From NCBI RefSeq assembly GCF_025291715.1, contig NZ_JAMBIZ010000001.1:186001-250000 (forward strand): 64,000 nt of DNA. The letters run 5' to 3'. Position 1 is the first letter of the stretch. Each line of letters begins with the position of its first letter. Made by a program: the position numbers and the translations under genes. Below the pieces are notes generated by a model. That model was not told the DNA's origin and did no database searches. It was given only the letters and a program-made list of their open reading frames with translations. Of the stretch, positions 40,857-64,000 are shown in pieces. Origin of the DNA: Metasolibacillus sp. GTDB taxonomy: Bacteria > Bacillota > Bacilli > Bacillales_A > Planococcaceae.

Positions 40857-41021
40857 TTGAGTATTTTTAAATCAGATTTGTTTTTAACAATTATTGCTTT
40901 GGCTATATTTGGTCTTGTCATTGCATTTGTCAATGGCGTGTTTGATCCGTTATTAGGTGATGTTGGAGAAGGAATGCGATCATTCGTGAGAAGTAAATTT
41001 GCTGAAATTACAGGCATTTAG
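40857..41021 (+). CDS. Small single-span membrane protein (54 aa)
   Basis: TTG 40857 with AAAGGAGATGA upstream. One membrane helix (LFLTIIALAIFGLVIAFVNG) and a short polar tail (LLGDVGEGMRSFVRSKFAEI). It lies among transfer genes before a VirB2-like gene and could be an accessory to the pilin-like protein; that is a guess. Confidence 0.55.
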   Translation: MSIFKSDLFLTIIALAIFGLVIAFVNGVFDPLLGDVGEGMRSFVRSKFAEITGI

Positions 41022-41062
41022 ATAATTGATGAATTTAGAAGAATGCAAGTGGAGGAATTATT

Positions 41063-41266
41063 ATGAGTTCTACTGGATCAAAAGGACGTTCAAAAGTGGC
41101 ACAAAAGCCTAATGGCTTTACTGAAATGGAATCTCTAGTTAAGGAGATTTTTGAAGGGCAGGACATGTCCTATCATGAATGGCTGCATGAGCAACACCAA
41201 GCATTCATTTTAGAATTTAGCTTAAAAAATAAGGGCAGTATTGCCTCGTTAGCAAAAAAGGAGTGA
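41063..41266 (+). CDS. Small transfer-operon protein (67 aa)
   Basis: ATG 41063 with GGAGGA upstream. The basic N-terminus (SSTGSKGRSKVAQKPNG) is followed by an amphipathic helical domain (EMESLVKEIFEGQDMSYHEWLHEQHQAFILEF). Not recognised. It overlaps nothing and is 7 bases before the VirB2-like gene. Confidence 0.5.
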   Translation: MSSTGSKGRSKVAQKPNGFTEMESLVKEIFEGQDMSYHEWLHEQHQAFILEFSLKNKGSIASLAKKE

Positions 41267-41273
41267 TACTAAG

Positions 41274-41519
41274 ATGCAAGAAACAGCAACATTAATTAAT
41301 AGTATTGCAAAAGATGTACAGTCGCTTGCACCAGCTGTTGCAGGTATTGCATTAGTTATTATTGGGCTTGTTTGGATGTTTGCGAAGGACCCAAACAAAA
41401 AAGAAGGTGCACAACAATGGCTAACAAATGTTGGAATTGGCTTTATGATTGTCTATTTAGCTGCAACTTTAGTTGCATGGGGAACTGCGAAAGTAGCAGG
41501 GCTAGGAGGCTTTAGCTAG
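41274..41519 (+). CDS. VirB2/TrbC-like pilin subunit candidate
   Basis: ATG 41274, 81 residues. Two hydrophobic helices (LAPAVAGIALVIIGLVWMFAK and GIGFMIVYLAATLVAWGTAKV) are joined by a short basic/acidic turn (DPNKKEGAQQWL), the layout of VirB2/TrbC-type conjugative pilins and of small T4SS core components in Gram-positive elements. There is no long cleavable signal peptide. Its place in the operon supports a transfer role. A holin-like protein would look similar, but lysis genes are absent. Confidence 0.68.
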   Translation: MQETATLINSIAKDVQSLAPAVAGIALVIIGLVWMFAKDPNKKEGAQQWLTNVGIGFMIVYLAATLVAWGTAKVAGLGGFS

Positions 41520-41536
41520 AAGGGAGTGGCTATAAA

Positions 41537-42526
41537 TTGAGAAAATTATTCATTCGTTTTAATGATGAAGGGGATCATTTTCGAGAAATTGACGAGGATC
41601 GCAATTACTTTTTAGTTGAGGCAGAAGAATTAGTTGAAAAGCTAAGACAACGATTAACGAAAGAAAAAAGAGTTGCTTCTAAGCCATTTGAGTTTTGGAT
41701 GGATGGAAAATGTCTGGTGATAAGTCATGTAGATTTTAACCAAACAACAAGCCTGCAAAAGCAACTTGAACAAACGATGTTAAGTTTCGGAAGTTGGGAT
41801 GAAGAACTGCGCCATCAGTATATTAATAAATTGATAGAATTAGCTGAGGAGGAGAGGCAGCTCTTTGTAAATAAAGAATTTGCTCTATTCGCTATTCGAA
41901 ATGATCAAATATTTGGTGTACCATCATTTACACCATTTCCGATACTTTTAGATATCAATCAACTTTATTTGTTATATCAAAGCCTGCAACCACTTGTGAA
42001 AACAGGTTTTTACACAGAATTGGAACGAATGATTACTGCAATAAAGTCTACGGTCTACAAAACAATTGACAAAGTTGGTAAATCAGACGAAGTACAACAA
42101 CAAATTGGTTTAGCACAACGACAAAAAGCGTTACAACAAGCTTTTGCTGCTTGGCTATCTGTGAATAACCATTCATTTGTACAGTATACATGTGCTAGTT
42201 TTCAGTCAGTGGGGAAAGAGCGTATTGATGCCCTTTGTCCGAATTTTAAATTGTATCAAAATATACAACAAATACTTTTCACTGCATATGTAAATCAATA
42301 TAGTTTTGCTCAGGGCTACGAGCAAAATCTATTATTGTTCGAAGCATTATATGAGAAATATAATGCGATTTTGGAGCAAGGATTTGCCCTTATAGATGAT
42401 TCAATGGTTGAATCACTCGTCCTCACACCTGTGCTGCAACAATTCCGTAGAAGTATTGAAGAAGCATTACAAAAAGCTGAGGAAACTGAAAATGAGCAAG
42501 AATCGGTTAACCTATCAGTCGATTAA
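41537..42526 (+). CDS. Uncharacterised transfer-operon protein (329 aa)
   Basis: TTG 41537 with AGAAGGGAG upstream. The protein is predicted soluble and helical ([69 protein letters not shown]). No motif is recognised. Its last 35 bases overlap the next gene, which suggests translational coupling and joint function with the Toprim protein. Confidence 0.6.
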
Positions 42527-43883
42527 TGATATGCTTGCTGATTTAAATGCACAGGATCGAGGGCGTTATTACATTTGTAGTTGTCCAGAGTGTCAGGAAC
42601 AAGAAGCGTTTATATATAAGAACAATTTAAATTTTATACAGTGTAACCGTGAAAATACTTGCGGGGAACGCTTTCTGTTACAAATTGCAGAAAAAAATGA
42701 GGACTATACGTATCAAGAAAAAATAGAGCAAGAAAAAGGACTAACCGTTAAACAAGCAAAGCAATTAGATCAATTTACAGAATTGATGCAACATTTTTTA
42801 CACCATATTCAAAGTGAAGCTTTGGACAATGGTTATCGTGGGTTATCACGAGAAACGACAACACCATTCATTGCAGATTTTCGCGATGCGGGTGTTTCAT
42901 TTATGTTCGAGTATGCTGGTGAATTACTCCCAAAAGATTATTCGACAAATTACTGGATGTGTCAAAGAAATTTAGTATCACCGATTTTTGGAGAAGATGG
43001 GCGTGTAGATCGGATTTTACTTCGTTCTACAATAAATCCAGATATTCAACCAAAGGAGCTGCAATTAATTGTGAATCCCTCCAATAAAGCGAGGGATTTT
43101 TTTGTGGATATTCCTGAACAGACACAAACAATTGTGATTAGTGAGGCTTTATTGGATGGTTTGTCATTTCGTGAAATAGATAAGGAAATAGGCGTTATGG
43201 CATTGACAGGTTCTCGTAAATGGCGAAATCTTTGTTCATACTTAAAAGAGCAGGCTTCACAGTATCAGGATAAAAAATTCCTTATTGCTATGGACGATGA
43301 TGTGGCTGGATATAAAGCAGCATTGGAGGTTGCCAATTGTTTAGAGGAAATGGAAGCAGACTACCAACTGTTTAGTTACCCTGAAGCCCAAAAAGATGCC
43401 AACGCCTTTCTAGTCGAGAATCCGAAGCGATTTGAACGCGATGTTCAATTGTTTCAACAACGCTTTTTATCAGAAGACAGAAGTTATATTGATGTCAAAA
43501 GAGAGATGAAACAAGTAGTGATTTGTCATTCTAATGTAGATGCACTTGCCTTTCGTAGTGTAGATGCAAATTTAGGCGTTATGGCTATACAGCATCAAGG
43601 CAAGGACAAAGAAATCGAAGAGCGATTGAATCGCTGGATGCAAAGTCGAGATATGTTGGATAAGACATTTTTAGTAGCACTTCCAAATACACCAGAAGGA
43701 CAGACAGAGACGAATAAAGTAATAGATTTACTACAAAAAAATGGACTGAAATACCAAGCATTTGATTATACGAATGTACCTTATGTAACACCGTCTGAAT
43801 TTGTTTTATCTGACCGTAAAACTTTTGAACGTCATAGGTCTTTCCAGTCTTCAATAACCCAACAGAAGCCATATGAACGGTAA
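42492..43883 (+). CDS. Toprim-domain primase-like protein
   Basis: ATG 42492 with GAGGAA upstream; 463 residues. An N-terminal zinc-finger-like region ([31 protein letters not shown]) resembles the CHC2/zinc domain of primases. The Toprim domain holds [14 protein letters not shown] and [16 protein letters not shown], which give the catalytic Glu and the Asp cluster. A second, partly similar half ([27 protein letters not shown]) looks like a degenerate Toprim repeat without the acidic cluster. Such proteins prime the complementary strand after transfer. The usual AEP or DnaG catalytic core is not evident, so priming activity is inferred. Confidence 0.72.
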
Positions 43884-43898
43884 GAAAGAGGTGAGAAT

Positions 43899-44324
43899 TT
43901 GCCAGCGTTTTTAAAGGTTTCTATTTTAATTGCAATCGTCTTTGTTTTTGTTACAGCTGTTATCTATTTTGGCTCAACACAACGTCTAACAGTTCGTACA
44001 ATCACTGAAACGGATAATATTATTGAAAATGTGAATGTGGGTGTGCTTCGAGCTGAAACCACCCAAGATGGTACGTTGCAAGAAGAAGCATATATTGTGC
44101 AAGAAGAATTAAGACAAAATTTAATCATGGAAATTGCTTCCGTACAAAAAAACATGCCTTACGATGTAAAAGTAGACTATGTATTTACAGATGCAGCTGG
44201 ACAAGCAACCAAAGAGCAAACTGCAATTCGTGGAATTTATTATCGGATGCAATATGTTGATAAGAACGGTAATATAAAAGGTTCTGCTGAAAAGCATTTG
44301 ATGCTAAACGAATTATCAAACTAA
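43899..44324 (+). CDS. Membrane-anchored extracytoplasmic protein of the transfer operon (141 aa)
   Basis: TTG 43899 with GAAAGAGGTG upstream. One N-terminal helix (FLKVSILIAIVFVFVTAVIYFG) anchors a 110-residue outer domain with strand pattern (LTVRTITETDNIIENVNVGV, DVKVDYVFTDAAGQATKEQ, IYYRMQYVDKNGN). No type IV prepilin Gly-Phe/Glu5 site is seen. It may be a minor pseudopilin-like or VirB8-like piece of the channel. Together with the 44378 gene it forms a pair of similar layout. Confidence 0.58.
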   Translation: MPAFLKVSILIAIVFVFVTAVIYFGSTQRLTVRTITETDNIIENVNVGVLRAETTQDGTLQEEAYIVQEELRQNLIMEIASVQKNMPYDVKVDYVFTDAAGQATKEQTAIRGIYYRMQYVDKNGNIKGSAEKHLMLNELSN

Positions 44325-44326
44325 CT

Positions 44327-44377: not shown

Positions 44378-44719
44378 GTGTCTAACATGAAGAGTTTTAT
44401 TTTCGCGTTATTGATTATTGTTCTATTTGTCTTTCCACATTTTTTGACATTTACAATTGATACGTTTCAACAACAATTTTTTATGAAAGTAACAACAGAA
44501 ATTCCTGAGCTTGTGAAAGCAGAGGGGGGGATATCCCCACTCGTTAAGGAACTGACAAATAAATTGGAAAGGACAGGCATTCAAATAACCTATTCACAAT
44601 CAGATATTGTGCGTTTTGGCGATGAAATTGTCATTCGCTATCAATATGAATATCCCAATGTAAAAGGCATGATCCAGCTAGAAACACAAAATGTAGTCAC
44701 CATTATGAAACGAGAATAA
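44378..44719 (+). CDS. Membrane-anchored extracytoplasmic protein, second of a pair (113 aa)
   Basis: GTG 44378 is taken, with AGGAGG 11 bases upstream; ATG 44387 is also possible. One N-terminal helix (FIFALLIIVLFVFPHFLTFTI) is followed by an outer domain with ITYSQSDIVRFGDEIVIRYQYEYPNVKGMIQL. The layout mirrors the gene before. Function unknown; the position next to VirD4 suggests part of the transfer apparatus. Confidence 0.58.
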   Translation: MSNMKSFIFALLIIVLFVFPHFLTFTIDTFQQQFFMKVTTEIPELVKAEGGISPLVKELTNKLERTGIQITYSQSDIVRFGDEIVIRYQYEYPNVKGMIQLETQNVVTIMKRE

Positions 44720-44736: not shown

Positions 44737-46947
44737 ATGGGATATCAGCTATTAGGGAAGCTGGCAAAACCAAAAATGTTGCTTGTTTTTTCGGTTTTGT
44801 ATAGTGCTGTTATGTTTTTGTTAGCGAATATTGTACTTGCTTTTATACAAGCCCTTGTAGTTGCATTTCAACAATTTCAAGTAGATCAAAGCTTAACACT
44901 TCAAATGAGATGGCAAAGTATGTGGGACTTTCAAAAAGACATACTCCCTTTTTATTTAGCTTTTGCCTTTCTTAGTTTAATAGGACTCATCAAGTTTATT
45001 TACAAAATACGGATGAGTTATACAGATTTAAATGAAGGCCAGCATGGTACAAGCGAATTTGAACAGATGAAGCAGTTGAAAAAGCAATATAAAATCATCC
45101 CAGCAGCGCATGAGGAGTATGATGGAGACGGTGGTATCATCATTTCTGCTTTGCAAGAAAAAGGTCGTCCGTACCGATTGTTAATTGATAATGGACCAGT
45201 CCATACAATCGTAATTGGTATCACACGTTCAGGTAAAGGGGAAACTTTTGTTTTTCCCATGATTGACGTACAGAGTCGATCTAAGAATAAGCCCTCGCTT
45301 GTTGTTAATGATCCGAAAGGTGAGTTAGCAGCTGCAAGTTATGATACATTGATTGCTCGTGGCTATGATGTATATGTCTTTAATTTACTACAACAGTACA
45401 TGGGAATGGGCTTTAATCCACTAACAATTGTTGTGGACGCTTGGAAAAAAGGGGATAGCAGTTTGGCGCAACAATACGCCAACAGTGTAGCGTTTATGCT
45501 ATACAATGATCCCAATGCAAAGGACCCATTTTGGAATAACTCTGCAAAATCATTAGTGACAGCCATTATATTAGCATTGGTGGAAGATTCTTTGTTAGTT
45601 GGTCGAGAGGAAACCGTTAACCTTTATTCTGTAGCTAATTTCTTAGCAACGTTAGGAAGTGACACAGATGAAGAAACAGAAGAGAATGCACTTGATTTAT
45701 TCTTCAGAGAACGTGATGAAAATAATCCAGCACGTATGATGTATGCCACAAGTAACTTTGCAGCTGGTAATACAAGGGCAAGTATTTTCTCAACCGCAAT
45801 GGACAAGCTTCAAATCTTTACATTAGAACCAAATGCAAAAATGACGAGTTATAACAGCTTAGATTTGACGGAAATTGGTTTTGGTGATAAGCCAATTGCT
45901 GTGTTCATGGTTACACCTGACTTTGATGAATCTAACCATGTATTATCAAGTATTTTTATCAGCCAAATGTACCGCGTGAATGCAGAAAAAGCTACGTTAA
46001 GCCCTAGTGGTAAAATGAAGCGTCAAGTACATGCTTTACTTGATGAGGTAGGGAACATGCCAGCAATTGATGGATTATCTAGCATGGTAACTGTTGGTGC
46101 AGGGAGAGGTTTCCGTTTCCATTTAATTATCCAAGCTTATTCTCAATTAAAGGGGAAATATGGAGAAAACGATGCAGATACTATCATTGGTAACTGTTCT
46201 AATCAAATTTATATTTTGACAAAAGATGAGGGAACTGCAAAACAATTTTCGAGTATGGTTGGTACTAAAACCATCACAGATATAAGTCGTAGTGGGAATC
46301 TCTTATCTATGGATAAAACTCATAGTGAATCTACAAAAGAACGTGAATTGTTAAAGCATGACGAACTCATGCAATTACTAGAGGGCGAATCAGTCGTTGT
46401 TCGTTCAAATAAGCGTCAAGATAATAAATTTAAGAAGATTAAACCTAAGCCTATTTTTAACACAGGCAAAACAGCAGCCAAGTTTCGTCATGAATATTTA
46501 GCAGATGATTTTGATAATAGTAAATCCATTTTAAATTTACCAATACTCTCACCAATGTATCATCGCTTAAAAATGTCAGATATCGTATTTACTTCTAAAA
46601 CGGATCGTGATTTATACATTCGTATGAAGTATGTCATGGGGAATAAAGTTTTCGAGGAATTGACAACCATTTTGCATACTTTTGTTCCAAAAGACTATAT
46701 GGATGAAATGGAGCAATGGTCATTTTTACACTTGTTAAGCTTTTTAGCGTATACACCTGAATTGGAGATGCCTAAACCTGTAGAGGCGCAAATATTTAAG
46801 CGATTAGAAAAATATTTGTCACAAAAGACGCTTGAAATGTGGAGGAACACTTTACATGATCAGCAAGAAAAATGGGATTTGGAAAATGAAGACGAGGAAG
46901 AATCACTCTTCCAAATACAAAAACAAATTAGAGAAGGGGAAATATAA
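44737..46947 (+). CDS. VirD4-type conjugative coupling protein
   Basis: This membrane ATPase brings the relaxase-DNA complex to the secretion channel. It has 736 residues. Two N-terminal membrane segments (about 10-40 and 65-90) are followed by the motor domain with Walker A GITRSGKGE (about 162-170), NDPKGELAA (typical of VirD4/TraG), and Walker B ALLDEVGNMP (about 432-441). Other signs are GRGFRFHLIIQAYSQLKGKYG and ILTKDEGTAKQFSSMVG. A helical C-terminal region of about 150 residues extends beyond the motor and may bind substrates. AAAGGAGCGAG precedes the ATG; the next gene overlaps by one base. Confidence 0.94.
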   Translation: MGYQLLGKLAKPKMLLVFSVLYSAVMFLLANIVLAFIQALVVAFQQFQVDQSLTLQMRWQSMWDFQKDILPFYLAFAFLSLIGLIKFIYKIRMSYTDLNEGQHGTSEFEQMKQLKKQYKIIPAAHEEYDGDGGIIISALQEKGRPYRLLIDNGPVHTIVIGITRSGKGETFVFPMIDVQSRSKNKPSLVVNDPKGELAAASYDTLIARGYDVYVFNLLQQYMGMGFNPLTIVVDAWKKGDSSLAQQYANSVAFMLYNDPNAKDPFWNNSAKSLVTAIILALVEDSLLVGREETVNLYSVANFLATLGSDTDEETEENALDLFFRERDENNPARMMYATSNFAAGNTRASIFSTAMDKLQIFTLEPNAKMTSYNSLDLTEIGFGDKPIAVFMVTPDFDESNHVLSSIFISQMYRVNAEKATLSPSGKMKRQVHALLDEVGNMPAIDGLSSMVTVGAGRGFRFHLIIQAYSQLKGKYGENDADTIIGNCSNQIYILTKDEGTAKQFSSMVGTKTITDISRSGNLLSMDKTHSESTKERELLKHDELMQLLEGESVVVRSNKRQDNKFKKIKPKPIFNTGKTAAKFRHEYLADDFDNSKSILNLPILSPMYHRLKMSDIVFTSKTDRDLYIRMKYVMGNKVFEELTTILHTFVPKDYMDEMEQWSFLHLLSFLAYTPELEMPKPVEAQIFKRLEKYLSQKTLEMWRNTLHDQQEKWDLENEDEEESLFQIQKQIREGEI

Positions 46948-47657
46948 TGATTCGAGAATTGTTGACAGAGCATTTACGAGATGTTCATCTCGCATTTTTT
47001 CAACTGCCTAAAAAACAGTTCATGATAAAACGGTTTTTGAACAGCAGTCTGTTCTCACTGTTTTTGTGTATAATTATTTCGCTTACGAAAGCAGAAGTGA
47101 TTTGGTATCTAGGTTTACCAATCGCTTTTTTTGTTGGCTGGAAATTACCTTACCTTCGTATATTAATGGAGAAGAACACAGCTGATGTCAAAAATGCCTT
47201 TTTGTTTTTGCCATTTTCGAATAGCTTCATGGTGTTACTACCTAATGTAAATGGAAATGTATATCAAGCATTAAAATTAACTCTTCCTTATACAGCTGCA
47301 CCGTTAGATAAAAAATTAAAGGAATTAATAGAAAAAATTGAAAAAGGGAATAATCGTCAAGATTATTTGGACTTTGCAAAATATATAGGCTCGCCAGAAG
47401 CCTACATGATTATGAATATGATTTATCAATTTAGTGAGCAAGGTATTCAAAAAGAATCAATTCAAACTTTGCAACGATATATCCAAAATATGCAAGAAAA
47501 TAAGGTGGACCAATTAATTGAAACAAAGATGGATACAAGTTTCAAAATCTCCTTTTTGCCAGTATTGCTCTCGCTATTTATAGTGGGAGCTTTTATTGTG
47601 CTGATATTTGCTCACTATTTCAAAACAATCGCAGATGCGCTAGATGTATTAATTTAA
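46947..47657 (+). CDS. TadC/T2SSF-like membrane platform protein
   Basis: 236 residues; its start overlaps the VirD4 stop by one base. Two membrane helices near the N-terminus (about 32-45 and 52-65), a cytoplasmic helical domain of about 130 residues, and a final membrane segment (FLPVLLSLFIVGAFIVLIFA). This is the layout of half of a T2SSF/TadB-TadC platform protein. It is one of two such genes that flank the CpaF-like ATPase, as tadB and tadC follow tadA in Tad loci. Sequence similarity to the known Pfam model cannot be tested here, so the assignment rests on topology and order. Confidence 0.55.
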   Translation: MIRELLTEHLRDVHLAFFQLPKKQFMIKRFLNSSLFSLFLCIIISLTKAEVIWYLGLPIAFFVGWKLPYLRILMEKNTADVKNAFLFLPFSNSFMVLLPNVNGNVYQALKLTLPYTAAPLDKKLKELIEKIEKGNNRQDYLDFAKYIGSPEAYMIMNMIYQFSEQGIQKESIQTLQRYIQNMQENKVDQLIETKMDTSFKISFLPVLLSLFIVGAFIVLIFAHYFKTIADALDVLI

Positions 47658-54300: not shown

Positions 54301-57300
54301 CTGAATATATTTAATAAAAAAGAATTGGATATTCCTTCAGACAAGCCAAGAGATTTAAAAATCCCTATCAAAGTAAAAGACCTCGCTGTTGGATATAGTG
54401 ATGCAGGTTACTATTTGATAGTATTTGACGAAAATGATGTGGCTTATGGTTTGGGGAGTGAAGCAGCTTTTCCTTCCGTAAGATATTGGGTTCCAGGAGA
54501 GGGTAATTTAGATTCTGTTAATCGTTATGCTTGGAAAAGGTTAGATTTTCAAAATATTGAGAAGGTAGTTACAAAAACAAGTGCTAGTTATAGTGGTGGG
54601 AACGCTGTACTTGACCTTCAAAATTTATATATCAGAAAAAACGGAAATGTTGAATATGCACGAAAACAAAGCTTTTCTAGTCATGGTACGCACCGTACTT
54701 ATTGGAATATGATGCAATTTGGAATTCCAGAGCCAATAAAAGATGCAGCGATAGGCTTTACAAGCGATAGCATACATTTTATCACTAGAAGTAATGAAGT
54801 ATATGGTATAGGTTATAACAATTTTGGGCAATTGGGCATACCTATAGGTACTGTATTTAAATCTGGCTACTATGAATATACAGATTATGCTCCAGACCCA
54901 GTAAAATTAAATATTCCTTTCAAGGTAGTACAAATATCAAAAGGGCAACAATATACGCATATGTTGGCTGAAAATGGAATTCCCTATGTAGTTGGTCAAA
55001 ATTTAAATGCGAATCTAGGTGTAAATACCAAAGACCATGTACCTCAGCTAACTAGAATTGAAGGTTTAAATATTAAATTTAAACGTAATGCAGAATTCAA
55101 GCAGCAGTCTTCTTCCATGTATATGACGACTTTTTCTAATAAAAAGCTAAGTTTGATTGATATACAAGAGAAAATGAAAAATGCTCGTGGCTATTATGTA
55201 GGGGTTACAACAAGAGAAAACCAATCGAATGTAGAAACTATCATCCAAAATAATAGTAATAAAGGGGCATTTTTTGATATTGGTCCATCCTACAATGACG
55301 CTAATTTACGTGCAAAAATTGAAGAACTAGCTAACTACATCATCAAAACACAAAATAACAATGCCATTGAAATTGAATTTTTACTTGATTCAGCATCAAC
55401 AGGTATTAGTGCAGCTATGTTAGAAAGTAAAATCAATGCTATCGTTAAACCACAGGTGGAGGATAATACTTCTGCACCTTTTGAAGCACGTGTACGTGAG
55501 TTAACAAATGCATATCAATTTAGCGATGTGCAACTAAGTGCTAAAAATAACTTTATAGTAGGATTAAAAAATGATGCGTATTCAGCTGACATGGAAAAGC
55601 AAGTGATTGCTACAAACCTTGTTAACAATGCGCATTTTTTAGGTGTTAGTGGAACTGTGAATCAAGGAACAATCAATAGGATGGTTGCAAAGTCCATGCA
55701 CAAAGGATCGTATATTAACAATACAAATATTGATGCAGCTTTAAATGAAGTTTCAACTTACATTTTAAATGAATTGGCAAATAGCAGAGGTATCACAGAA
55801 CTATTCATAACTAATGAGGAGCAAGTGGATTATGAAGCCCATTACTCCGATTATGAAAAGGACCCTATATTAGAAGATTATTGGAAATTTAAGCATGAGC
55901 TTAATTTCTTTGAAAGCGAAACGGGTGTAATTGCTGATAATCAACAACAAAGGCAAAGCCCATATCGTCATTTTGGGTTGACGGGGCGTTATCAAGTGTT
56001 TTATGCAGCACAGGACGATCCATTAACGCGCTATTTTGCGCCGAATACAATTTCACCATTTGTAGATTACCGTAAGTGGTCCAATGAAGCCGATAATTTA
56101 AAAATTTATGTGCATAAAATGCCATCTGCTGAATTTACATTTACAGTGGACGAAATGACAGGAAAAGTCGATATCTTATCTGTTGCGCACGATGAAGATA
56201 AAGCCAGTATTAATGTAGGTTTTGGGGATGGTCTACAATCGCAACGTTTTGATTATCGTACTAAAGGTGGAGAATGGATTGATGGTGTACCAAGTCACCT
56301 AGAAGTAGATGTTGAATATGATGTGCGAAATAGTGTCATTGATTTTCAAGGAAAAGCAGCTGAAGTCATCAAAACGCTGTCTTTAAAAAATTTGCCCCCA
56401 GTTGCAAGATTTGAAACGGATAAACCAATCTATGAAGTAGGTGATTTTGTTGTACTAAAAAATACTTCGTACGATCCTAATAACGATAATCTAATTGCTG
56501 AATGGTCTTATAAATTAAGAGAAGAATCAACTTATAAGCCATTAGGCACGGGTAAGTTCACTTCAGGAACAGCTGAGGAAGGTTGGCATACAATGATCCC
56601 TCGTATTGCTTGTGACAAACCAATTAATGAATCTTGTTTTTACGACATACATCTCAAAGTAACCGATACGCATGGCTTATTTGATGAAACTGTACAAACT
56701 GTAGAAGTACAGAGCGTAGAGAAAAGCATTGCACCAACAGAAGGGACTGTATATTGGGAACTTCAACGTTTAAAGGAAGATGAGGATAGTTATGTTGTCA
56801 TGAATGTGGAATTTGAAGTACCAGAGGGCAAGCATTATGCTACACGTGCTCCCTTACATGTATTATCCTATGGCTCAACAAATATTTCACAGATACAACC
56901 TATTAATATTCAAGTTGCTGGAGCAAGTGTGAAAGGACAAACAATGTCATATCAATTTAGCTATGAATATGCTGAAGAACCCATTGGGTGGAAAACAACC
57001 AGCTGTATAAACGGTATTTGCGAATGGGAATTTGATTACGCTCCTGATTGGAGCAAAATGAAAGTATTGGAGTTAGCAGGTTCTTTAGCTATTGATCATT
57101 CCATGAAAGATACAATTCAAGCATCGACATTTTCAGAGATTTTAGAGCGAGAATGGGTAGTAGGTCGTGAAGATAAGTGGGATGTAGTAGCAGAGAGGCT
57201 TGTAAATTCAAATGTATTTCATGAGCGTTATCAACAAGCTACAAGTAGTATGTATGAAGACCATTTACAATTAAAAACTCAAACAATGATGCCAGCAAAG

Positions 57301-58119
57301 CCAGATACATTGAGATATCAAGTATCTTTACCATCTGCAATTCAAACCGAAGCATCATTCTATCCGTTAAAAAAATCACAAAGCCACGGAAAATTTATAG
57401 CAGCTGAGCTAGATGAAAATCTTCAAGAAGAATTTGCAGATGGTATACAGCTACAACAATTAGAGCTAGATGACAAAGGAATGAATGGTGCGAATCGTGT
57501 ATTTGAAGCGAATTATGTATCTGATTTATTCTTTATTACTAAATCGTTAGGCTTTATATCAGGCTATCCGTATGCAGAACAAGTGCAACAAGCTATTGTC
57601 AATGACCAGCCATTGCCAGCCTATGATGATGTGATGAAGGTAGGTATTGCAAAAGGAGAGAAAGACTTTGCTCGTTATACAGAGAACAAAGTACCTTTTA
57701 AAGATGAATGGATGTATACAGAAGATGAAGCAAAATTTGCTTCGTTGCAGCGCTACGCAATTCCTGTAAATCCATACTCAGAATTACAATCAAATGAGGT
57801 ATATGAAAATGAGTTTGAGTTAGTGGATATGGGGTTAAATGATTTGCGTTTTGAATTTAAACAAACATTTTCATTTGAACATTATTTGTTCGGCTCTGGT
57901 TATGACGATGCTTGGATTATCGGTCAGCAAGGTTCACTTTCAGGACCACCTTTCAAACAAGAAGATATTGCAGGGACAATTATTTTAACACAAGATCAAA
58001 TACTTGAAATTGGAAAACTCTATTATGAACGGATGAATGAGCCTTATAATAAGATTCATAATTTCCGTTACATGGATCGCACGTACCCAGATCAAGTACG
58101 AGAGATTTTAAATAATTAA
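51400..58119 (+). CDS. Giant secreted multidomain surface protein (2239 aa) with RCC1-like and PKD-like repeats
   Basis: A signal peptide (KKYFSILLIFILVFSG) leads a 2239-residue protein. Segments visible by eye: a Big2/Ig-like domain at about 325-410; an Asp-rich PKD-like domain at about 420-507 (VELIVPPEVTVGQKFCAVANAHDEDGEIVAYGWDYTG); RCC1-type repeats at about 808-1210 (YILTEDGKVYGAG, FLLEDGSVYGTG, and YGIGYNNFGQLGI); a region with two repeats each ending in SNVETII- and GISAAMLESKI-like helices; another PKD-like domain near 1663-1767. There is no LPXTG, SLH or membrane anchor at the C-terminus, so it may be held by another protein. A mating-contact or adhesion role is likely but inferred. 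ATG 51403 may be the real start. Confidence 0.85.
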   Translation: MMKKYFSILLIFILVFSGFPPQLFGEVFSSTKTQAANEVPFFDGDTHLKIERLIPGGDTEFRRVDSKGLSGVQYLGDYRYATIYDGKLTGSPSSDNTTFNVSGKSVRAYAGDKWYHIVPKSLGTARNLIRIEDLTENEFVNRYGGSKENYKNLTRFTVMDMKGRDYGDFRYIGDIVKKAGGFAENTSASFDSTNPTRLRILRTAHPNISSFNVSATNTDVGKAVTFDFTAFEYNYGGNKLDYTLIITDAEGKEVGRKVQSVSSTKNASGGLASQDRAHTGKYDAKNFFSFTPATAGKFTATLTVTDGVYRSSTALVKTFTAKQKGQAYLEVTPPTITIPKDHKASYQAFYTDATGKRTEVTDKAIWKAIKTDIAATSGKGLFTGLKEGKTQVEASYQGAKDQAELIVSSTPAPEEPEPEPEEPNIPPTVELIVPPEVTVGQKFCAVANAHDEDGEIVAYGWDYTGRGDPTGRQTCGLYYEEEGEKTVTVVVRDDDGDTAMDTKKIIVTRPMPNAHFVASGTFKENRKISIEAAHPYEGENDAALKAYPLVKQTWTIVTVDSAKQDKLRIVQDISGNVPHTQVIDMLLKTTGEIRVTRYVENSVGDHATYTVTLNVIPDLEPVANFEVASTIYREPIDETAAQATIEIQDKSYSPDDMIQKRIWRVAHDSNNDGRFDDEQFVVFDENNTELAKYLTSKVGKYQIELEVFEKYIHETIPAFVDLTFNKATTDLRHDNTDEKAIATKIVEVDNLAPVATVGLKDQKQTVEVQYDVVDSPYNESQLKSMTPYLNNLLEKHNLQANVTFATSKTIEHQVFADGYDKSYILTEDGKVYGAGGGIIGNGSTTGVLDANGNMITPYVEIPLPAKVKQITAKNRTSTHFLLEDGSVYGTGSNSARLYSRYDKNGAYIAGVIDIGGIGDGTTTPRLSPVKIDLPKKVVKMDSINFITVFLLEDGSVYGTGNFVYDGNLNIFNKKELDIPSDKPRDLKIPIKVKDLAVGYSDAGYYLIVFDENDVAYGLGSEAAFPSVRYWVPGEGNLDSVNRYAWKRLDFQNIEKVVTKTSASYSGGNAVLDLQNLYIRKNGNVEYARKQSFSSHGTHRTYWNMMQFGIPEPIKDAAIGFTSDSIHFITRSNEVYGIGYNNFGQLGIPIGTVFKSGYYEYTDYAPDPVKLNIPFKVVQISKGQQYTHMLAENGIPYVVGQNLNANLGVNTKDHVPQLTRIEGLNIKFKRNAEFKQQSSSMYMTTFSNKKLSLIDIQEKMKNARGYYVGVTTRENQSNVETIIQNNSNKGAFFDIGPSYNDANLRAKIEELANYIIKTQNNNAIEIEFLLDSASTGISAAMLESKINAIVKPQVEDNTSAPFEARVRELTNAYQFSDVQLSAKNNFIVGLKNDAYSADMEKQVIATNLVNNAHFLGVSGTVNQGTINRMVAKSMHKGSYINNTNIDAALNEVSTYILNELANSRGITELFITNEEQVDYEAHYSDYEKDPILEDYWKFKHELNFFESETGVIADNQQQRQSPYRHFGLTGRYQVFYAAQDDPLTRYFAPNTISPFVDYRKWSNEADNLKIYVHKMPSAEFTFTVDEMTGKVDILSVAHDEDKASINVGFGDGLQSQRFDYRTKGGEWIDGVPSHLEVDVEYDVRNSVIDFQGKAAEVIKTLSLKNLPPVARFETDKPIYEVGDFVVLKNTSYDPNNDNLIAEWSYKLREESTYKPLGTGKFTSGTAEEGWHTMIPRIACDKPINESCFYDIHLKVTDTHGLFDETVQTVEVQSVEKSIAPTEGTVYWELQRLKEDEDSYVVMNVEFEVPEGKHYATRAPLHVLSYGSTNISQIQPINIQVAGASVKGQTMSYQFSYEYAEEPIGWKTTSCINGICEWEFDYAPDWSKMKVLELAGSLAIDHSMKDTIQASTFSEILEREWVVGREDKWDVVAERLVNSNVFHERYQQATSSMYEDHLQLKTQTMMPAKPDTLRYQVSLPSAIQTEASFYPLKKSQSHGKFIAAELDENLQEEFADGIQLQQLELDDKGMNGANRVFEANYVSDLFFITKSLGFISGYPYAEQVQQAIVNDQPLPAYDDVMKVGIAKGEKDFARYTENKVPFKDEWMYTEDEAKFASLQRYAIPVNPYSELQSNEVYENEFELVDMGLNDLRFEFKQTFSFEHYLFGSGYDDAWIIGQQGSLSGPPFKQEDIAGTIILTQDQILEIGKLYYERMNEPYNKIHNFRYMDRTYPDQVREILNN

Positions 58120-58124
58120 TTTAT

Positions 58125-58193: not shown

Positions 58194-60749
58194 TTGAATG
58201 ACCAAGAAATTATTGAGAAGCATAAAATCTTAGACTCTATTTTACATCTGAATGATGGGTTTATGTGGCAAGATGTATTACGAGCTTTTGGTGGATTTAT
58301 CGTTTCAGCGCTTAGTTGGTTTAATCGAACAATAGAGACGATTGTCACGAAGTTTATAACGTTAAACGATTTTTATAAGACAGGAGCAGTTGGAGCGTTT
58401 ATGGACAATGCACGACCATTTATTTGGGTCGTGTTTTTTGTTGCACTTGTTGTTCTTGGTTTCCAGTTTATGTTTAATAAAATTGAGAAGCGAAATGAAG
58501 TGTTATTAAATATTGTCATGGCGCTTTGCTTTATCGTGATTATTCCTGATTTAATGTCTAATATACAAAAGATTGTTGGAGCAGGCATTGAAGAGATTAA
58601 GCCAAAAAATGAATCTTTAGCGAGTAATATGATCAAAAGTAATGTTGCCGATCTTCTTTACTATGCTGAAAAAAACTTTGAATTTGCTAATGGTACAAGC
58701 CGAGGGGATGCCAATACTCCCCCTAGACCATTTAATAAAGATAATAATACAGGGACACCAGATTACACATTTGCGAATCGCCTTTCAGCAACGCACGATC
58801 TGAAAATTCCATACACACAAAAACTTGATTTACACGATGATGATGGATGGATATTTAAGGCAGATTGGGTAAAGGGATTAAGTAAATCTTCAAAAGATGT
58901 ATTAAGTCATAAATCAGTCCCAACGGGTGTAGGGAAAGGTTATCAAGTAGAGGAGTTAGCAAAAAATAAAATAAGAGGGACTGAAATAGGAAGGGAAACT
59001 TATTATCGCTATCACGTGAACTGGTTTACTTTAATTATGACCTTACTTATTACAAATTTTGCGCTAGCTATTACAGCTATTAAAATTGGACGATCTATTT
59101 TTGATTTAGCATTTCATCAAATTTTTGGTGTGTTTATTGCAGCTTCTGATTTGACAGGTGGACAACGGACTAAAAAAGTTCTTATTGAAATTCTAAACAC
59201 CTTTGTAGTCATGGCTGTAATGATTGCTTTAATTCAATTGTTTATTCTTTTTGTTACGTGGGCAAATTCTTGGCGCTATGAAGTAGGAACTTTAGGAGTA
59301 ATAATCCTCTTGATTGCTGGTGCTTGGGCATTGATTGATGCACCAGATATTGTACAACGTCAATTAGGAATTGATGCTGGCTTACGCAATGGCTGGCAAG
59401 CAATGATGGGAGCATATGCTGCTAGTAAAGTTGCATCTGGAGGAGCAAAAGCACTTGGTGGCGCAGGGATGAAATCTGCTGCAACAGCAGGTGGTGGCGC
59501 AAACTTTATGCGTCGTATGGTACAAGGGATGCGAACACAAGCCCAAACACCAATTTCTTCGTCTTCATCTACACAAACTGGTCAAAGAGGTGCAAGTGGT
59601 GTTCCTAAAGTACCAAGTAGCCAAAATGGTGGAACAGGGGGACAATCAACAACAGGGCAACAACAGGGAAATTCGGGTGTTGGACCAACTTCACAAGGTT
59701 CGCAAGCAATGCCTACATCTAATAATAATACAGGGAATGCAGGAGATTCTGCGCAAGGTACAACACAGGCTGCACAGAATAATACCAACACTTCTGTGGC
59801 AACAGTACCAGCTACTCCAACTAATCAAGGAGCATCTGAAGGAACTAAAGAACAAAATGGTCAAGGGAGTTTATCTAGTCAGCAGAGGGCAGAACAAAGA
59901 GCACAAAGAAGAAATCAATCTTCAGACGCTACTAAAGGGCAAACAAGCAATCAAAGTGCCAATACAGTACCATCAAAACAAGTAAATGGAGATCAGCAAA
60001 CAGCAATCCCTGCTAATGATACACCAATAAATAAGACAGATGTAAAAGAAATGCCAACACAAGATAGCTCACAAAATATAGGGCAAAAAGGAGGTACAGA
60101 GATACCATCAAGTGGAGCAGTCTCACAGGGGAATCAAAATACAATAAGCCCATCTGAAGGAACGCCGAATAGCCAACAGCAAAAGGTTGCTGAAATTCCA
60201 TCAAATAAAACAGGAGGACAAGTTGCTCAAGGAGGTAATACACCAACTTCAGCACAGAATAGTGTTGCTGATACCAAAGGCCATAAAGAAACAGCAGCTA
60301 CTATACCAACAAACGAAAGTGGTCCATCTAATAATCAAGTAGATATACCTGCTATACCAACTAACCAAAGTACAAGTACTGTTCAACAACCAACAAATGC
60401 ACCAGCTGTAAACAATGAATCAACACAGTCCATTCCTTCCGAAACATCAACGGGTGGTACTAATCAGGAGCAAAGACAAAATAGACGTCAGCAACATATG
60501 GCACAACGTGCTACTAATCAACTAAATGTAGCACAGCAAACTCCACATGGGCAATCGAATCAAGCACCATTTGGACATAAACAAGCTGTGCATAAAAATA
60601 CGATTATAGGGGGAAATCGTAATGTGCAAAAATTGAAAGAACAAGTAACAAGAGCAGGAAATTCAGGCTTTACGCTGGGGCAAAATATTCGCCGTGCAAC
60701 AAATGTCTTTAATAAGAAAGATAAAAAAGACGAAGGGGGCAATAAATAA
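58194..60749 (+). CDS. VirB6-like polytopic channel protein with a long Gln/Asn/Ser/Thr-rich tail (851 aa)
   Basis: TTG 58194 with GGGAGGAGGAG upstream. The N-terminal 400 residues hold about five hydrophobic segments (FIWVVFFVALVVLGFQFMF, LLNIVMALCFIVIIPDLM, TLIMTLLITNFALAITAI, FVVMAVMIALIQLFILFV, VGTLGVIILLIAGAWAL), the layout of VirB6/TrbL proteins. The C-terminal part from about 430 to 800 is low-complexity, rich in Gln, Asn, Ser, Thr and Pro, and probably disordered, followed by a basic end (KKDKKDEGGNK). Such tails in VirB6-like proteins may reach outward or bind partners. Its position before the VirB3-like and VirB4 genes supports the assignment. The next start overlaps by one base. 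Confidence 0.75.
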   Translation: MNDQEIIEKHKILDSILHLNDGFMWQDVLRAFGGFIVSALSWFNRTIETIVTKFITLNDFYKTGAVGAFMDNARPFIWVVFFVALVVLGFQFMFNKIEKRNEVLLNIVMALCFIVIIPDLMSNIQKIVGAGIEEIKPKNESLASNMIKSNVADLLYYAEKNFEFANGTSRGDANTPPRPFNKDNNTGTPDYTFANRLSATHDLKIPYTQKLDLHDDDGWIFKADWVKGLSKSSKDVLSHKSVPTGVGKGYQVEELAKNKIRGTEIGRETYYRYHVNWFTLIMTLLITNFALAITAIKIGRSIFDLAFHQIFGVFIAASDLTGGQRTKKVLIEILNTFVVMAVMIALIQLFILFVTWANSWRYEVGTLGVIILLIAGAWALIDAPDIVQRQLGIDAGLRNGWQAMMGAYAASKVASGGAKALGGAGMKSAATAGGGANFMRRMVQGMRTQAQTPISSSSSTQTGQRGASGVPKVPSSQNGGTGGQSTTGQQQGNSGVGPTSQGSQAMPTSNNNTGNAGDSAQGTTQAAQNNTNTSVATVPATPTNQGASEGTKEQNGQGSLSSQQRAEQRAQRRNQSSDATKGQTSNQSANTVPSKQVNGDQQTAIPANDTPINKTDVKEMPTQDSSQNIGQKGGTEIPSSGAVSQGNQNTISPSEGTPNSQQQKVAEIPSNKTGGQVAQGGNTPTSAQNSVADTKGHKETAATIPTNESGPSNNQVDIPAIPTNQSTSTVQQPTNAPAVNNESTQSIPSETSTGGTNQEQRQNRRQQHMAQRATNQLNVAQQTPHGQSNQAPFGHKQAVHKNTIIGGNRNVQKLKEQVTRAGNSGFTLGQNIRRATNVFNKKDKKDEGGNK

Positions 60750-61096
60750 TGTATGAGATTCCAAAGGAAATTAAATCTAAGCCTAAATTATTTGGTTTGG
60801 AAATCAAGGAGCTAATCATAGTTGTGATTAGCTTCTTTTTATTTTTTACAATTTTACGTGATCTGGTTCATGGTGTATTAGTTGTTCCATATATGCTTGT
60901 CGCAAGTTTTACATTGTTGTGGTTTGTAATGCCTTCTGGTAACAATCCGCGAAAAAAAAACTATCAATCAATTTTCTTATATTTTAAGCATAAACAACGT
61001 TCTAGCTATCATGCATTAGATATTCAAAAAATAATGAATGAGCAGAATAAGCATTTATTTGAGGATGGTGAGACTTCAAATGAGCGAAGATATTAA
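60749..61096 (+). CDS. VirB3-like membrane protein (DUF5592-type)
   Basis: 115 residues. MYEIPKEIKSKPKLFGLEIKEL is the N-terminal pattern of the DUF5592 family of Gram-positive conjugation loci. Two hydrophobic segments follow (LIIVVISFFLFFTIL and VVPYMLVASFTLLWFVM) and a basic tail, the layout of VirB3/PrgI-like proteins that sit beside VirB4. The start overlaps the stop of the VirB6-like gene by one base. Confidence 0.72.
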   Translation: MYEIPKEIKSKPKLFGLEIKELIIVVISFFLFFTILRDLVHGVLVVPYMLVASFTLLWFVMPSGNNPRKKNYQSIFLYFKHKQRSSYHALDIQKIMNEQNKHLFEDGETSNERRY

Positions 61097-61712
61097 GCCA
61101 ATTATTGTACCTTCTTATACAGAGGAAAAAGGTACTAAAAAGAAATTCTTCCGTTTTGAAAACCGTAAAAAGAAGAAGGCGAAAAAGCAAGTTAAAAAAC
61201 AGTACGTATTGCGTAAAACACCTGAATTAGTGCCTTTTTTAAAATATGGAGCTAACGAAAACATTGTGATGAAAAATGATCTACACATGGATTTGTTTCA
61301 GATTACACCAAAGGACTTGCAATCTTTAACGGATGAGGAACTGGAAATGCATGTCTTACTTGAAGCACGTTTTAATCGTAGTACAACTGCTGGATATAAA
61401 ATCATTGCATTAAACTTCCCATCAAATATGGAAAAGCAGCGACAATACTGGCTACGCAAAAAGGAGCGAGCTACAAGTCCATTACAAGTACGTTTCATTG
61501 ATAGAAAAATTTTTGAATTTAACTTTTTAGAGCAAGAAAGACCGAATCGTGAATTTTTCTTATTTCTATATGCACCATCTGAACAATTGTTAGAAGATTT
61601 AAAAAATCAAGCGATTCGTGGGATGCGTCAGACATTTCCGTTGCAGAAATTAACTGTAGATAAAAAACAAGATGTTTTATTTTTGCTAAATAACCCGAAC
61701 TCAAAATTGTAA
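61080..61712 (+). CDS. Conjugation protein, possibly the detached N-terminal domain of VirB4
   Basis: ATG 61080 with GGATGGTGAG upstream gives 210 residues and overlaps the previous gene by 17 bases. After a basic leader (KKKFFRFENRKKKKAKKQVKK) there is a mixed domain (DLHMDLFQITPKDLQSLTDEELEMHVLLEARF, YKIIALNFPSNMEKQRQYWLRKKE, FNFLEQERPNREFFLFLYA) that reads like the N-terminal, membrane-proximal domain of VirB4/TraC proteins. The VirB4 ATPase gene follows after 19 bases. Split VirB4 genes occur in Gram-positive elements; the assignment here is inference from position and pattern. Confidence 0.6.
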   Translation: MSEDIKPIIVPSYTEEKGTKKKFFRFENRKKKKAKKQVKKQYVLRKTPELVPFLKYGANENIVMKNDLHMDLFQITPKDLQSLTDEELEMHVLLEARFNRSTTAGYKIIALNFPSNMEKQRQYWLRKKERATSPLQVRFIDRKIFEFNFLEQERPNREFFLFLYAPSEQLLEDLKNQAIRGMRQTFPLQKLTVDKKQDVLFLLNNPNSKL

Positions 61713-61731
61713 TTGTGAAAGGAGATACTAC

Positions 61732-63717
61732 ATGCTTGCTAAGCTTATTCCACCTCGGTTTAGAGGTGTAGAGAAAGAATCAGTAGAAGAGAAAGAAAAG
61801 ATAGCAGCTAAAAATAAGAACTATGATCCACTTTTTTTAGCTGCTATTCAGCCACAAGGTGGGGTGCAACCAAAAGATAAATATATCCAAAAAGGTGATG
61901 GCTATGAGGCTTGTATTCATATTTGGGATTATCCAACCAAAGTGTCTCCGCTTTGGTTAGAAAAGTTATTTTCAATGCGTGAAGTAATTGTTGTAGAAGA
62001 CGTGGTGACTATGCCACGTGATGAAACGGTTAGTGCAATCAATAAATCGATGTTGGAACAAACAATGCGTTATTCAAATAGTAAAAAACAGTCGCAAAAA
62101 ATGGATGCTGAAAATAGTTTCCAAGAATTAGAGCGACTTTACCATGAAATTGCCCAAATGGGCGAGGTAGTGAAGCTTGTTGATATTCGTTTATATGTTC
62201 ATGCAAAGACCATACATGAACTTGAGCAAAAAGTTCAACTTGTTGAAACAGACTTACGTTCCTATGGATTCAAAGGTACGATTTTCTTAAATGAAACAAC
62301 TTGGGAATGGCAATCTCTATTCCTTCCTTATGAAGAGCAACAAAAGCTCCCTAACCAAAGAGAAGGTAAAGGGATGCAAGGATTAACATTAGCAGCAGGA
62401 CTACCCTATCATTTTTCAGAATTAAATGATCCAACAGGGAGCTACTTAGGAACCACATTTTCAGGAGGAAATGTGGTTTTTGATCTTTTTCATAAAGATA
62501 AACAGCGACGTTTTTATAATGCAGTTGTCGCAGGGTTGATGGGTGCAGGTAAATCTACATTATTAAAAAAGTTGACTGTTGATAATGCCTGTCGACAAAA
62601 TATTATTCGTGGATTTGATGTGGTTGGGGAATTTGAAACGGTAGTTAGTGAACTTGGTGGTCACATGATTAGTTTAGATGGTAGTCAAGGGATTTTAAAT
62701 CCCTTACAAATCTATCGTCAAGAAGATGGCTCTAAAGAAAAATCAAAGCAAAAAAGTGAAGAGCTTTGTTTTATGCAACATCTGTCAAAAGTCGCTAAAT
62801 TTTATCAATTTATAGCTAGTCAACCATCTGCTGAAGATTTAGAAGAGTTCAAAAAAGTAACACGTACTTTTTATGGATCACTAGGATTTCTGGAACGTAT
62901 TCAGCAAGGTGAAAGTGTTACAGACTTATCAAATGAATCTTACCCTATTTTTAGTGATTTATTAAACTTCGTGCAACAAGAACTATATGAAGATGTAGAG
63001 CGCCGTCTTATTCGAACAGAATTGTCAATTGCTCGTGCAAACCGATTAGAACGAATTGAATTGATTCTTGATAATGTTGTACACACATATGGCTATTTAT
63101 TTAATGGCCATACTTCTATCCCTGATTTTACAGATGAACAAGTGATTATGTTTTCTGTACGCCGATTGACGAACTTAGAAAAGAATATTTTCAATGCACA
63201 GATGTTTAATGCATTTACATTGATTTGGGATAATCTGATTTCAATTGGTGCACCCCAAATGCGAGCAATGTATGAGGATGCGAATTTTAACTTCGATGAT
63301 GCGATTCGATTTTTTGTAGTCATCGATGAATCACATCGATTTATTAATGCTGACAATCCGTTGGCTGTAGATTTCGTAGTTGATTATGAAAGGGAAGCGC
63401 GAAAATATCTTGGTGGTATCGTGTTAGCCAGTCAATCTATTCGAGATTATGTACCTGAACATGCGAATGATGAAGTTGTATCGAAGATAAAGAAGTTGTT
63501 TGAATTAACACAATATAAATTTATCATGCAACAAGATGCCAATGCTTTAGATGCAATACGTACCATTTTCGAAGGTCAGATTTCTGAAAGTGAGTTGGCT
63601 CAAATACCACAGCTTCAGCAAGGTGATTGCTTCTTATCTATCAGTGGTGTAGGGAACTTAATGTTTACAGTTGAAGCATCCGATGAAGAAATTGCGTTGT
63701 TTAGAGGAGGTATGTAA
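61732..63717 (+). CDS. VirB4-type T4SS ATPase
   Basis: 661 residues. AAAGGAG precedes the ATG. The N-terminal 200 residues are the VirB4 N-domain (VVEDVVTMPRDETVSAINKS, LYVHAKTIHELEQKVQLVETDLRSYG). The motor domain has Walker A NAVVAGLMGAGKSTLLKKL (about 260-280), FDVVGEFETVVSELGG, LNPLQIY, and Walker B FFVVIDESHRF (about 527-537), followed by ARKYLGGIVLASQS and KFIMQQDANALD, all typical for VirB4/TraE. Energises pilus or channel assembly. A degenerate duplicate of its P-loop region lies at 47921. Confidence 0.95.
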   Translation: MLAKLIPPRFRGVEKESVEEKEKIAAKNKNYDPLFLAAIQPQGGVQPKDKYIQKGDGYEACIHIWDYPTKVSPLWLEKLFSMREVIVVEDVVTMPRDETVSAINKSMLEQTMRYSNSKKQSQKMDAENSFQELERLYHEIAQMGEVVKLVDIRLYVHAKTIHELEQKVQLVETDLRSYGFKGTIFLNETTWEWQSLFLPYEEQQKLPNQREGKGMQGLTLAAGLPYHFSELNDPTGSYLGTTFSGGNVVFDLFHKDKQRRFYNAVVAGLMGAGKSTLLKKLTVDNACRQNIIRGFDVVGEFETVVSELGGHMISLDGSQGILNPLQIYRQEDGSKEKSKQKSEELCFMQHLSKVAKFYQFIASQPSAEDLEEFKKVTRTFYGSLGFLERIQQGESVTDLSNESYPIFSDLLNFVQQELYEDVERRLIRTELSIARANRLERIELILDNVVHTYGYLFNGHTSIPDFTDEQVIMFSVRRLTNLEKNIFNAQMFNAFTLIWDNLISIGAPQMRAMYEDANFNFDDAIRFFVVIDESHRFINADNPLAVDFVVDYEREARKYLGGIVLASQSIRDYVPEHANDEVVSKIKKLFELTQYKFIMQQDANALDAIRTIFEGQISESELAQIPQLQQGDCFLSISGVGNLMFTVEASDEEIALFRGGM

Positions 63718-64000
63718 ATGAATCGTACAATGATGTTCAAATTTCTTTTATTGTTATTTATTGGGCTAGTGCTGTTAGCTCTAGTTTTTTATAATCGATT
63801 TTTTAATGGAAGAGAGAACAGCGATTTTGAGGTGGGGACAGGCTATATTCATATGGAGTCTAATACAACAGAAAGAACTAATTCCCATGAAAATGAGAAG
63901 AAAGAAGAGGTTCAAATTGTAGAAACAAATGATGAAAAAAAAGATACTAAAGTGTTAGAGATTAACCCAGATATGGGGAGTTCGAAGTCGACTAAAGAGT
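63718..64000 (+). CDS. Membrane-anchored transfer protein, 3' end outside window
   Basis: ATG 63718 with GAGGAGG upstream, directly after the VirB4 stop. The visible 94 residues begin with a hydrophobic helix (FKFLLLLFIGLVLLALVFY) then a polar, Glu/Asn/Lys-rich linker. This is the layout of a signal-anchored protein of T4SS loci such as a VirB1-like hydrolase or VirB8-like protein, whose defining domains would lie beyond the right edge. Identity cannot be settled here. Confidence 0.6.
   Translation, partial: MNRTMMFKFLLLLFIGLVLLALVFYNRFFNGRENSDFEVGTGYIHMESNTTERTNSHENEKKEEVQIVETNDEKKDTKVLEINPDMGSSKSTKE

Follow-up and report, generated by a model that had tools for sequence, protein, structure and literature searches.

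A pLS20-class conjugation locus in a Metasolibacillus integrative element carries a Tad-like ATPase and platform cassette

A 64,000-nt stretch of a Metasolibacillus sp. genome (hereafter the window, positions 1-64000; contig NZ_JAMBIZ010000001.1, positions 186,001 to 250,000) carries a conjugation locus in which a type IV secretion system (T4SS) of the pLS20 class is joined to genes for a CpaF/TadA-type ATPase and a pair of TadB/TadC-like membrane proteins. The locus forms the transfer operon of an integrative and conjugative element (ICE) of ~59.2 kb that has a serine recombinase and a MobP2 relaxase. We consider it probable that the Tad-like genes constitute a reduced type IV filament cassette that serves mating contact or the crossing of the cell wall. 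An earlier note on this DNA had proposed that a T4SS core is combined here with a Tad-like ATPase/platform unit, and the present analysis supports that proposal, which withstood the two refuting outcomes that the note had named. Specifically, the named genes were recovered in place on the + strand, the T4SS genes and the ATPase score above curated family cut-offs, the platform proteins have T2SSF-type identities, and the ATPase is not a standard VirB11.

The ATPase (48100..49245, with its start at 48100 or 48109) is assigned to the CpaF/TadA-type hexameric secretion ATPases. It exceeds the T2SSE cut-off (68.5 bits versus 24.9), retains an intact Walker A motif (GRTNAGKT) and carries the invariant Glu, Arg and His motif residues of the family. 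Among curated models it scores best with TadA (TIGR03819, 76.7 bits), followed by TrbB (64.5 bits) and VirB11 (51.9 bits), all three values being under the equivalog cut-offs (373 for TadA TIGR03819 and 250 for VirB11). Similarly, when the family profile is compared with known structures, archaeal GspE2 (95 bits), CpaF (92 bits) and FlaI (84 bits) precede VirB11 (75 bits). A maximum-likelihood tree places the cassette ATPases and those of pLS20-type plasmids in one group (support 93/88), apart from the VirB11/TrbB rows and also from the canonical Tad CpaF rows, such that the group falls beside, not within, canonical CpaF. As judged from these profiles, the protein is nearer to TadA/CpaF than to VirB11. 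The candidate identity of a standard VirB11 is excluded by the profile scores and by the position outside VirB11/TrbB in the tree.

Two predicted inner-membrane proteins flank the ATPase. The earlier note had described both as TadB/TadC-like, and profile comparison now specifies the upstream protein (46947..47657) as TadC-like and the downstream protein (49246..49986) as TadB-like. By hhalign, the former aligns with canonical TadC at 97.2% (E 3.5e-11) and the latter with canonical TadB at 98.0% (E 2.6e-13), where the reference TadB and TadC sequences were taken from Robertmurraya and from Tad loci within the window's own bacterial family. The cross-scores (49246 to TadC, 46947 to TadB) are lower, and relatives of both membrane proteins are annotated T2SSF. 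Searched as single sequences, 46947 and 49246 give 15.3 and 22.7 bits and do not reach the T2SSF cut-off of 25.2. The AlphaFold model of the 46947 product, built like the other structure prediction on shallow alignments (the genome-contig search yielded five loci), has a predicted local distance difference test (pLDDT) score of 82.0. Its best Foldseek matches in the PDB are SpoIIIAB (prob 1.00), PilC (0.95) and EpsF (0.85), with OutF also present; all are of the GspF kind, with target TM-scores of 0.61-0.67. A T2SSF fold is therefore supported for 46947 by the predicted structure, and for the 49246 family by the profile alignment to canonical TadB. A weak match of 49246 to UpsF (E 0.0011) lies far under the cut-off.

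The T4SS part of the locus comprises a VirB2-like pilin (41274..41519; T4SS_pilin PF18895 48.0 bits, cut-off 26.6; TrbC 34.8 bits), a VirD4 coupling ATPase (44737..46947; 184.6 bits; NCBIfam CD1115 459 bits, cut-off 250), a VirB6-like channel protein of the pLS20_p028 family (58194..60749; 373.8 bits, cut-off 150), a VirB3-like protein of the DUF5592/PrgI kind (60749..61096; DUF5592 38.4 bits, cut-off 26.7) and a VirB4 ATPase (61732..63717; Pfam 24.5 bits, cut-off 21). Each of the five exceeds its curated cut-off, and VirB4 is 70% identical to that of Bacillus badius. Because VirD4 belongs to the CD1115 family and VirB6 to the pLS20_p028 family, the system is assigned to the pLS20 class.

The combination of T4SS and Tad-like genes stands, but this locus is not alone in having it, since pLS20 and its relatives carry the cassette as well. 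We found it in about 12 pLS20-type T4SS loci, pLS20 among them. The order of the window recurs in G065, G039, G032, B. badius pPM400, P. larvae, pBS72 and B. subtilis WH60A, and another order is seen in pLS20/pNARUSE, Virgibacillus, P. bifermentans and Listeria. A Paraclostridium sordellii plasmid, whose conjugation region also appeared among the matches, is not included in this comparison. In the window, VirD4 lies between the pseudopilin and platform genes, an order kept in at least eight elements. The gene-order comparison called for in the earlier note thus reveals recurrence in independent elements, and for this reason the arrangement is not one that arose by chance.

The cassette also occurs without a T4SS. 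Free-standing copies are present in G056, G269, G558, Siminovitchia thermophila, Cytobacillus horneckiae and a Peribacillus asahii plasmid, some of the genes in G269 and G558 straddling the borders of the stretches examined. At E <= 1e-10, no VirB4 relative was found in the five genomes with a free-standing cassette or in the P. asahii plasmid record. Conversely, two T4SSs of the same class, on an Exiguobacterium plasmid and an S. saprophyticus plasmid, lack the cassette. Because it is present alone without VirB4 and absent from some same-class T4SSs, it appears to be a filament cassette sufficient in itself and not an accessory of the VirB11 kind. Free-standing and T4SS-embedded cassettes are intermingled in the ATPase tree, and therefore the association between T4SS and cassette has probably been altered more than once. 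Genomes rarely carry the closest form of the cassette, which was detected in 6 of 261 members of the family, 6 of 399 genomes sampled from the class and 2 of 398 sampled from the phylum, the weakest match being doubtful. A scan of viral contigs returned no relatives. All cassette genes in the window are intact, and a comparison with the nearest relative, G065, demonstrates that they are under purifying selection (ratios of nonsynonymous to synonymous polymorphism, pN/pS, of 0.24-0.48, and 0.14-0.34 for the T4SS genes).

Which proteins might form the filament? The earlier note recognized the ATPase and platforms of the cassette and left the small proteins encoded at 40857, 43899 and 44378 unassigned. 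Each has one predicted transmembrane segment. The product of 40857..41021 (TTG start, AAGGAG upstream) is a prepilin-like protein of 54 amino acids (aa) with a short polar leader, a K-S/G cleavage-like site and an amphipathic tail. Homologues are found in T4SS-embedded loci of the window's gene order, with none detected in one such locus (L040), and in most free-standing modules, as one to three tandem copies. Identical or near-identical tandem genes for prepilin-like proteins of 53-64 aa lie at L039 9342-10094, L045 5097-5556 and L047 5645-6041. Pseudopilin-like protein A (43899..44324; 141 aa, N-terminal transmembrane segment) belongs to no named family and gave no profile match to a Robertmurraya Tad-locus protein; its gene has been kept adjacent to those for the filament, both where the cassette is embedded and where it stands alone. 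Pseudopilin-like protein B (44378..44719; 113 aa; GTG start, AGGAGG upstream) is DUF4320-like. Its AlphaFold model (pLDDT 82.6) consists of a 48-residue N-terminal helix followed by a helix and three strands. By profile, it matches DUF4320-like proteins of the pLS20 type at 80.7% and one Robertmurraya Tad-locus protein at 71.5%, and a DUF4320-annotated gene in an Exiguobacterium Tad-like locus at only 3.4%.

The 54-aa and 113-aa proteins have a leader of the form M-x-E-x-K-G/S in common, and their first 18 residues are alike (profile comparison 58%, with most control pairs at 5% or below). In G032, G039, G056 and Siminovitchia, proteins of the B type bear C-terminal extensions of ~280-830 aa and reach 394-941 aa in all. 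Extended forms of 584-941 aa are encoded at L049 17150-19975, L045 8988-10847 and L053 5475-9206, and the L049 form contains many DTRVYKYRGxVTKP-like repeats. Such extensions match what would be expected of a tip adhesin, and the extended forms are probable representatives of this kind. Taken together, the tandem copies, the common leader and the extensions suggest that the 54-aa and 113-aa proteins serve as prepilins and a tip adhesin. As to membership of the type IV filaments in the broad sense, the ATPase and the platform are of the expected kind, and the leader and transmembrane architecture of the small proteins are suggestive of cleavable prepilins.

Two genes for large surface proteins follow the cassette. 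The first (50192..51379) encodes a secreted S-layer-homology (SLH) protein with three SLH domains (115.9 bits). The second (51400..58119) encodes a secreted protein of 2239 aa in which domain matches reveal RCC1-like and PKD domains, making it a probable adhesin. In most loci of either kind, embedded or free-standing, its relatives adjoin the filament genes; those next to other cassette copies yielded no RCC1 match. As an analogy, the RCC1 propeller of this filament-linked protein resembles the propeller of PilY1.

A number of observations weigh against the proposal that the cassette builds a filament. The locus lacks CpaB/RcpC, TadZ and a dedicated TadV peptidase. Profile comparison found no match of the 54-aa protein to Flp of the Bacillaceae type (1.6%) or of protein B to one TadE (2.5%), and a Foldseek search of the PDB with the predicted fold of protein B returned no pilin and nothing convincing. 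The prepilin-like proteins have no Glu at position +5, and the copies in the window have Ser at the presumed cleavage site where relatives have Gly. For the TadC-like protein, the Foldseek E-values are not significant alone, even though the GspF-kind top matches agree with one another. Finally, a VirD4-like fragment lies 3′ of the cassette on the P. asahii plasmid, so this free-standing copy may be what is left of a T4SS locus after decay.

The gene content suggests how two machines could cooperate. The first, comprising VirD4, the VirB6-like, VirB3-like, VirB4 and VirB2-like proteins, a lysozyme/M23 hydrolase and the MobP2 relaxase, would nick and export single-stranded DNA. In the second, the CpaF/TadA-type ATPase would drive, by turning, the TadB/TadC-like membrane platform, which would polymerize the 54-aa prepilin. 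Pseudopilin-like proteins A and B might prime or cap the filament as initiator or tip. Processing of the prepilin is likewise presumed; the sole A24 prepilin peptidase in the assembly is a host gene on another contig. The giant RCC1/PKD protein and the SLH protein, together with the filament, may attach to and hold the recipient. The filament could then draw donor and recipient together, or push through the wall, to enable the T4SS channel, after which VirB4 and VirD4 would export DNA with that channel.

The strongest rival explanation is that the ATPase has a VirB11-like role within the T4SS, docking on VirB4 and switching between pilus assembly and DNA transfer, with the TadB/TadC-like proteins as additional inner-membrane scaffold and no separate filament. 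The pLS20 literature names the corresponding gene virB11 and counts its product as a T4SS component (PMC11730352), and in the window's order VirD4 lies inside the cassette gene set. The profile of the ATPase, however, is closer to TadA/CpaF/FlaI, the cassette is present in five genomes without a related VirB4, and loci for T4SSs of the same class exist without it. Furthermore, T2SSF-type platforms are, to our knowledge, not part of any known T4SS. On balance we regard the VirB11-like role as unlikely.

Two further explanations accept that the cassette makes a structure of its own and differ in the purpose assigned to it. If it encoded an adhesion pilus that serves the host cell in colonization or aggregation, it might simply ride with the element and be dispensable for transfer. 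The free-standing copies fit this possibility, as does a Cutibacterium acnes plasmid on which conjugation genes adjoin a tad locus and which has been described mainly for its adhesive Flp pili (PMC5696575). Mere cargo would not be expected to be interleaved with VirD4 in an order kept across elements, or to be co-transcribed with conjugation genes, as virB11 of pLS20 is (PMC11730352), and we judge this explanation quite improbable. It is still harder to favor a T2SS-like pseudopilus that acts as a piston to push the SLH and RCC1/PKD proteins or wall enzymes through the wall without ever forming a long pilus. Genes for large surface proteins accompany the cassette in most loci and the candidate subunits are very short, which speaks for this possibility; on the other hand, the surface proteins have ordinary N-terminal hydrophobic segments resembling export signals, and tandem copies of the small subunits suggest a need for a polymer.

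The locus can be compared with known systems. The closest is pLS20, a B. subtilis natto plasmid, which likewise has a CD1115-family VirD4, a pLS20_p028-family VirB6, DUF5592, VirB4, a lysozyme-type hydrolase and MobP2, in addition to the same set of ATPase, TadB, TadC and pseudopilin genes and tandem small transmembrane proteins. Its ATPase, annotated tadA or virB11, is ~34% identical to that of the window, and its public record already carries the label tadA. In pLS20, however, pseA-CpaF-TadB-TadC-pseB are grouped before VirD4 on a plasmid with a thioester adhesin, whereas in the ICE of the window VirD4 separates the pseudopilin genes from the platform genes and a PC4 gene has been inserted. 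The Tad/Flp pilus (type IVc; Caulobacter cpa, Aggregatibacter tad) is similar in its CpaF/TadA-type ATPase and its TadB plus TadC pair, and differs in having CpaB/RcpC, TadZ, TadV, a secretin and subunits with the Flp motif and Glu at +5. A canonical Tad pilus locus is excluded for the window, given that Flp, TadE, CpaB, TadZ and TadV are either absent or could not be demonstrated.

Further parallels exist. On C. acnes plasmids, genes for FtsK-like, VirB4 and TcpC-like proteins and a tad locus occur in one Gram-positive element (PMC5696575), but the transfer system is a different one, and the tad locus lies beside it and is not interleaved with an operon of the pLS20 class. The SpoIIIA-SpoIIQ complex of sporulating Bacillus combines a T2SS/T4SS-type ATPase (SpoIIIAA) with a GspF/TadB-C-like protein (SpoIIIAB, the best fold match of 46947) in a channel between cells (PMC2703783). 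Unlike the locus described here, this complex has no VirB4 or VirD4, has a single platform protein and is not for DNA transfer. The cell contact brought about by the Ups pili of Sulfolobus serves DNA exchange. These pili, too, are type IV filaments and keep cells attached to one another (PMC6668835), but they are archaeal and their locus is without a VirB-type T4SS. On an Exiguobacterium plasmid, pEYLC1.2 (L072 1-15462), a Tad-like locus with CpaB, an AAA ATPase, CpaF, two genes in the TadB/TadC position and DUF4320 adjoins genes for a DUF87 ATPase and a lysozyme, and is possibly a further Tad/conjugation hybrid.

Thus, the locus is a variant rather than a machine of a new type. That its Tad-like genes make up a complete, separable cassette seems to have escaped notice. 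A 2025 review holds that VirB11 homologues are universally absent from Gram-positive T4SSs (PMC12857230), and the earlier note likewise took such systems to lack a VirB11 ATPase; for the pLS20 class this statement fails. No description of the pLS20 unit as a Tad-like cassette was found in the searchable papers, which excluded subscription papers and preprints. Both the pLS20 work in which the gene is called virB11 (PMC11730352) and a further report (PMC8092201) regard Gram-positive systems as seemingly free of pili. If reviews see no pilus in these T4SSs, then how do donors hold recipients? We tentatively propose, while conceding that the opposite is somewhat easier to defend, that a class of Gram-positive conjugation systems (common on plasmids of Bacillus, and present on those of Listeria and probably Enterococcus) builds its mating filament by means of an exchangeable Tad-like cassette. 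If true, the conjugative pilus so long missing from Gram-positive bacteria would have been found, encoded by a module acquired separately from the T4SS. The cassette provides named genes, also in the well-studied pLS20, whose knockout can reveal if a type IV filament takes part in Gram-positive mating. There is also a practical consequence for MOB/MPF (mobilization and mating-pair formation) typing, which can misread pLS20-type plasmids. PLSDB types the Gram-positive plasmid pNARUSE (L038), pLS20 (L070) and a Listeria plasmid (L071) as MPF_T, and the TadA-like ATPase may be what misleads the assignment.

The genome, of a member of the Bacillota, measures 3.8 Mb, and the contig 306 kb; the window holds most of the ICE, including its left end. 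The ends were read from the empty site in G066, a genome of the same species without the element. Chromosomal identity of 98-99% to G066 stops at window position 23868 and restarts at L003 19060 (contig 269060), which sets the left junction at 23868/23869; two bases at the junction are shared. A large serine recombinase gene, the integrase, lies at the left end on the - strand (23958..25817; Resolvase 131.6 bits and Recombinase 73 bits, both above cut-off), and a MobP2 relaxase gene lies in the right half of the same element (378.3 bits, cut-off 200; MobL 333 bits). It is the presence of these two genes that identifies the element as an ICE.

The remaining genes of the locus, again on the + strand, encode a 67-aa conserved protein positionally like DUF5415 (41063..41266; no match in a Pfam search), a conserved locus protein (41537..42526), a Toprim-domain, primase-like protein (42396..43883, the true start probably downstream of 42396; Toprim_2 49.1 bits), a PC4/YdbC-like single-stranded DNA-binding protein (47674..47937; PF02229 30.3 bits, cut-off 25) and a conserved T4SS-locus protein (61038..61712, the true start downstream of 61038). 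The first two and the last are kept in the gene order. At the window's end begins a protein with one transmembrane segment in a VirB8-like position (63718..64000, ending at L003 350), whose B. badius relative is annotated DUF6556. Beyond it, the transfer operon goes on to encode the lysozyme/M23 wall hydrolase, then a protein resembling ribbon-helix-helix proteins, and the relaxase. A 70-aa open reading frame (47900-48112) lying between the PC4 gene and cpaF is 57% identical over 46 aa to the VirB4 of 61732-63717 and lacks the Walker A lysine (GAGQG). None was detected at the same place in G065 or G039, and it is a candidate decayed duplicate or small decoy. Directly upstream of the operon, a 174-aa open reading frame (40276-40797) gives an AcrIC5 score of 20.7 bits, below the cut-off of 27.

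From their common orientation and short gaps, the transfer genes appear to form one operon. A dispersed family of hairpins with the sequence ACCAAAwwTGGTGAGT is found at window positions 30429, 30825, 40807, 44329, 50006 and 58135 (7 matches versus 0.28 expected), several being followed by a run of T. Processive antitermination has already been described in pLS20, and the terminator-like hairpins within the presumed transfer operon suggest that it may operate here.

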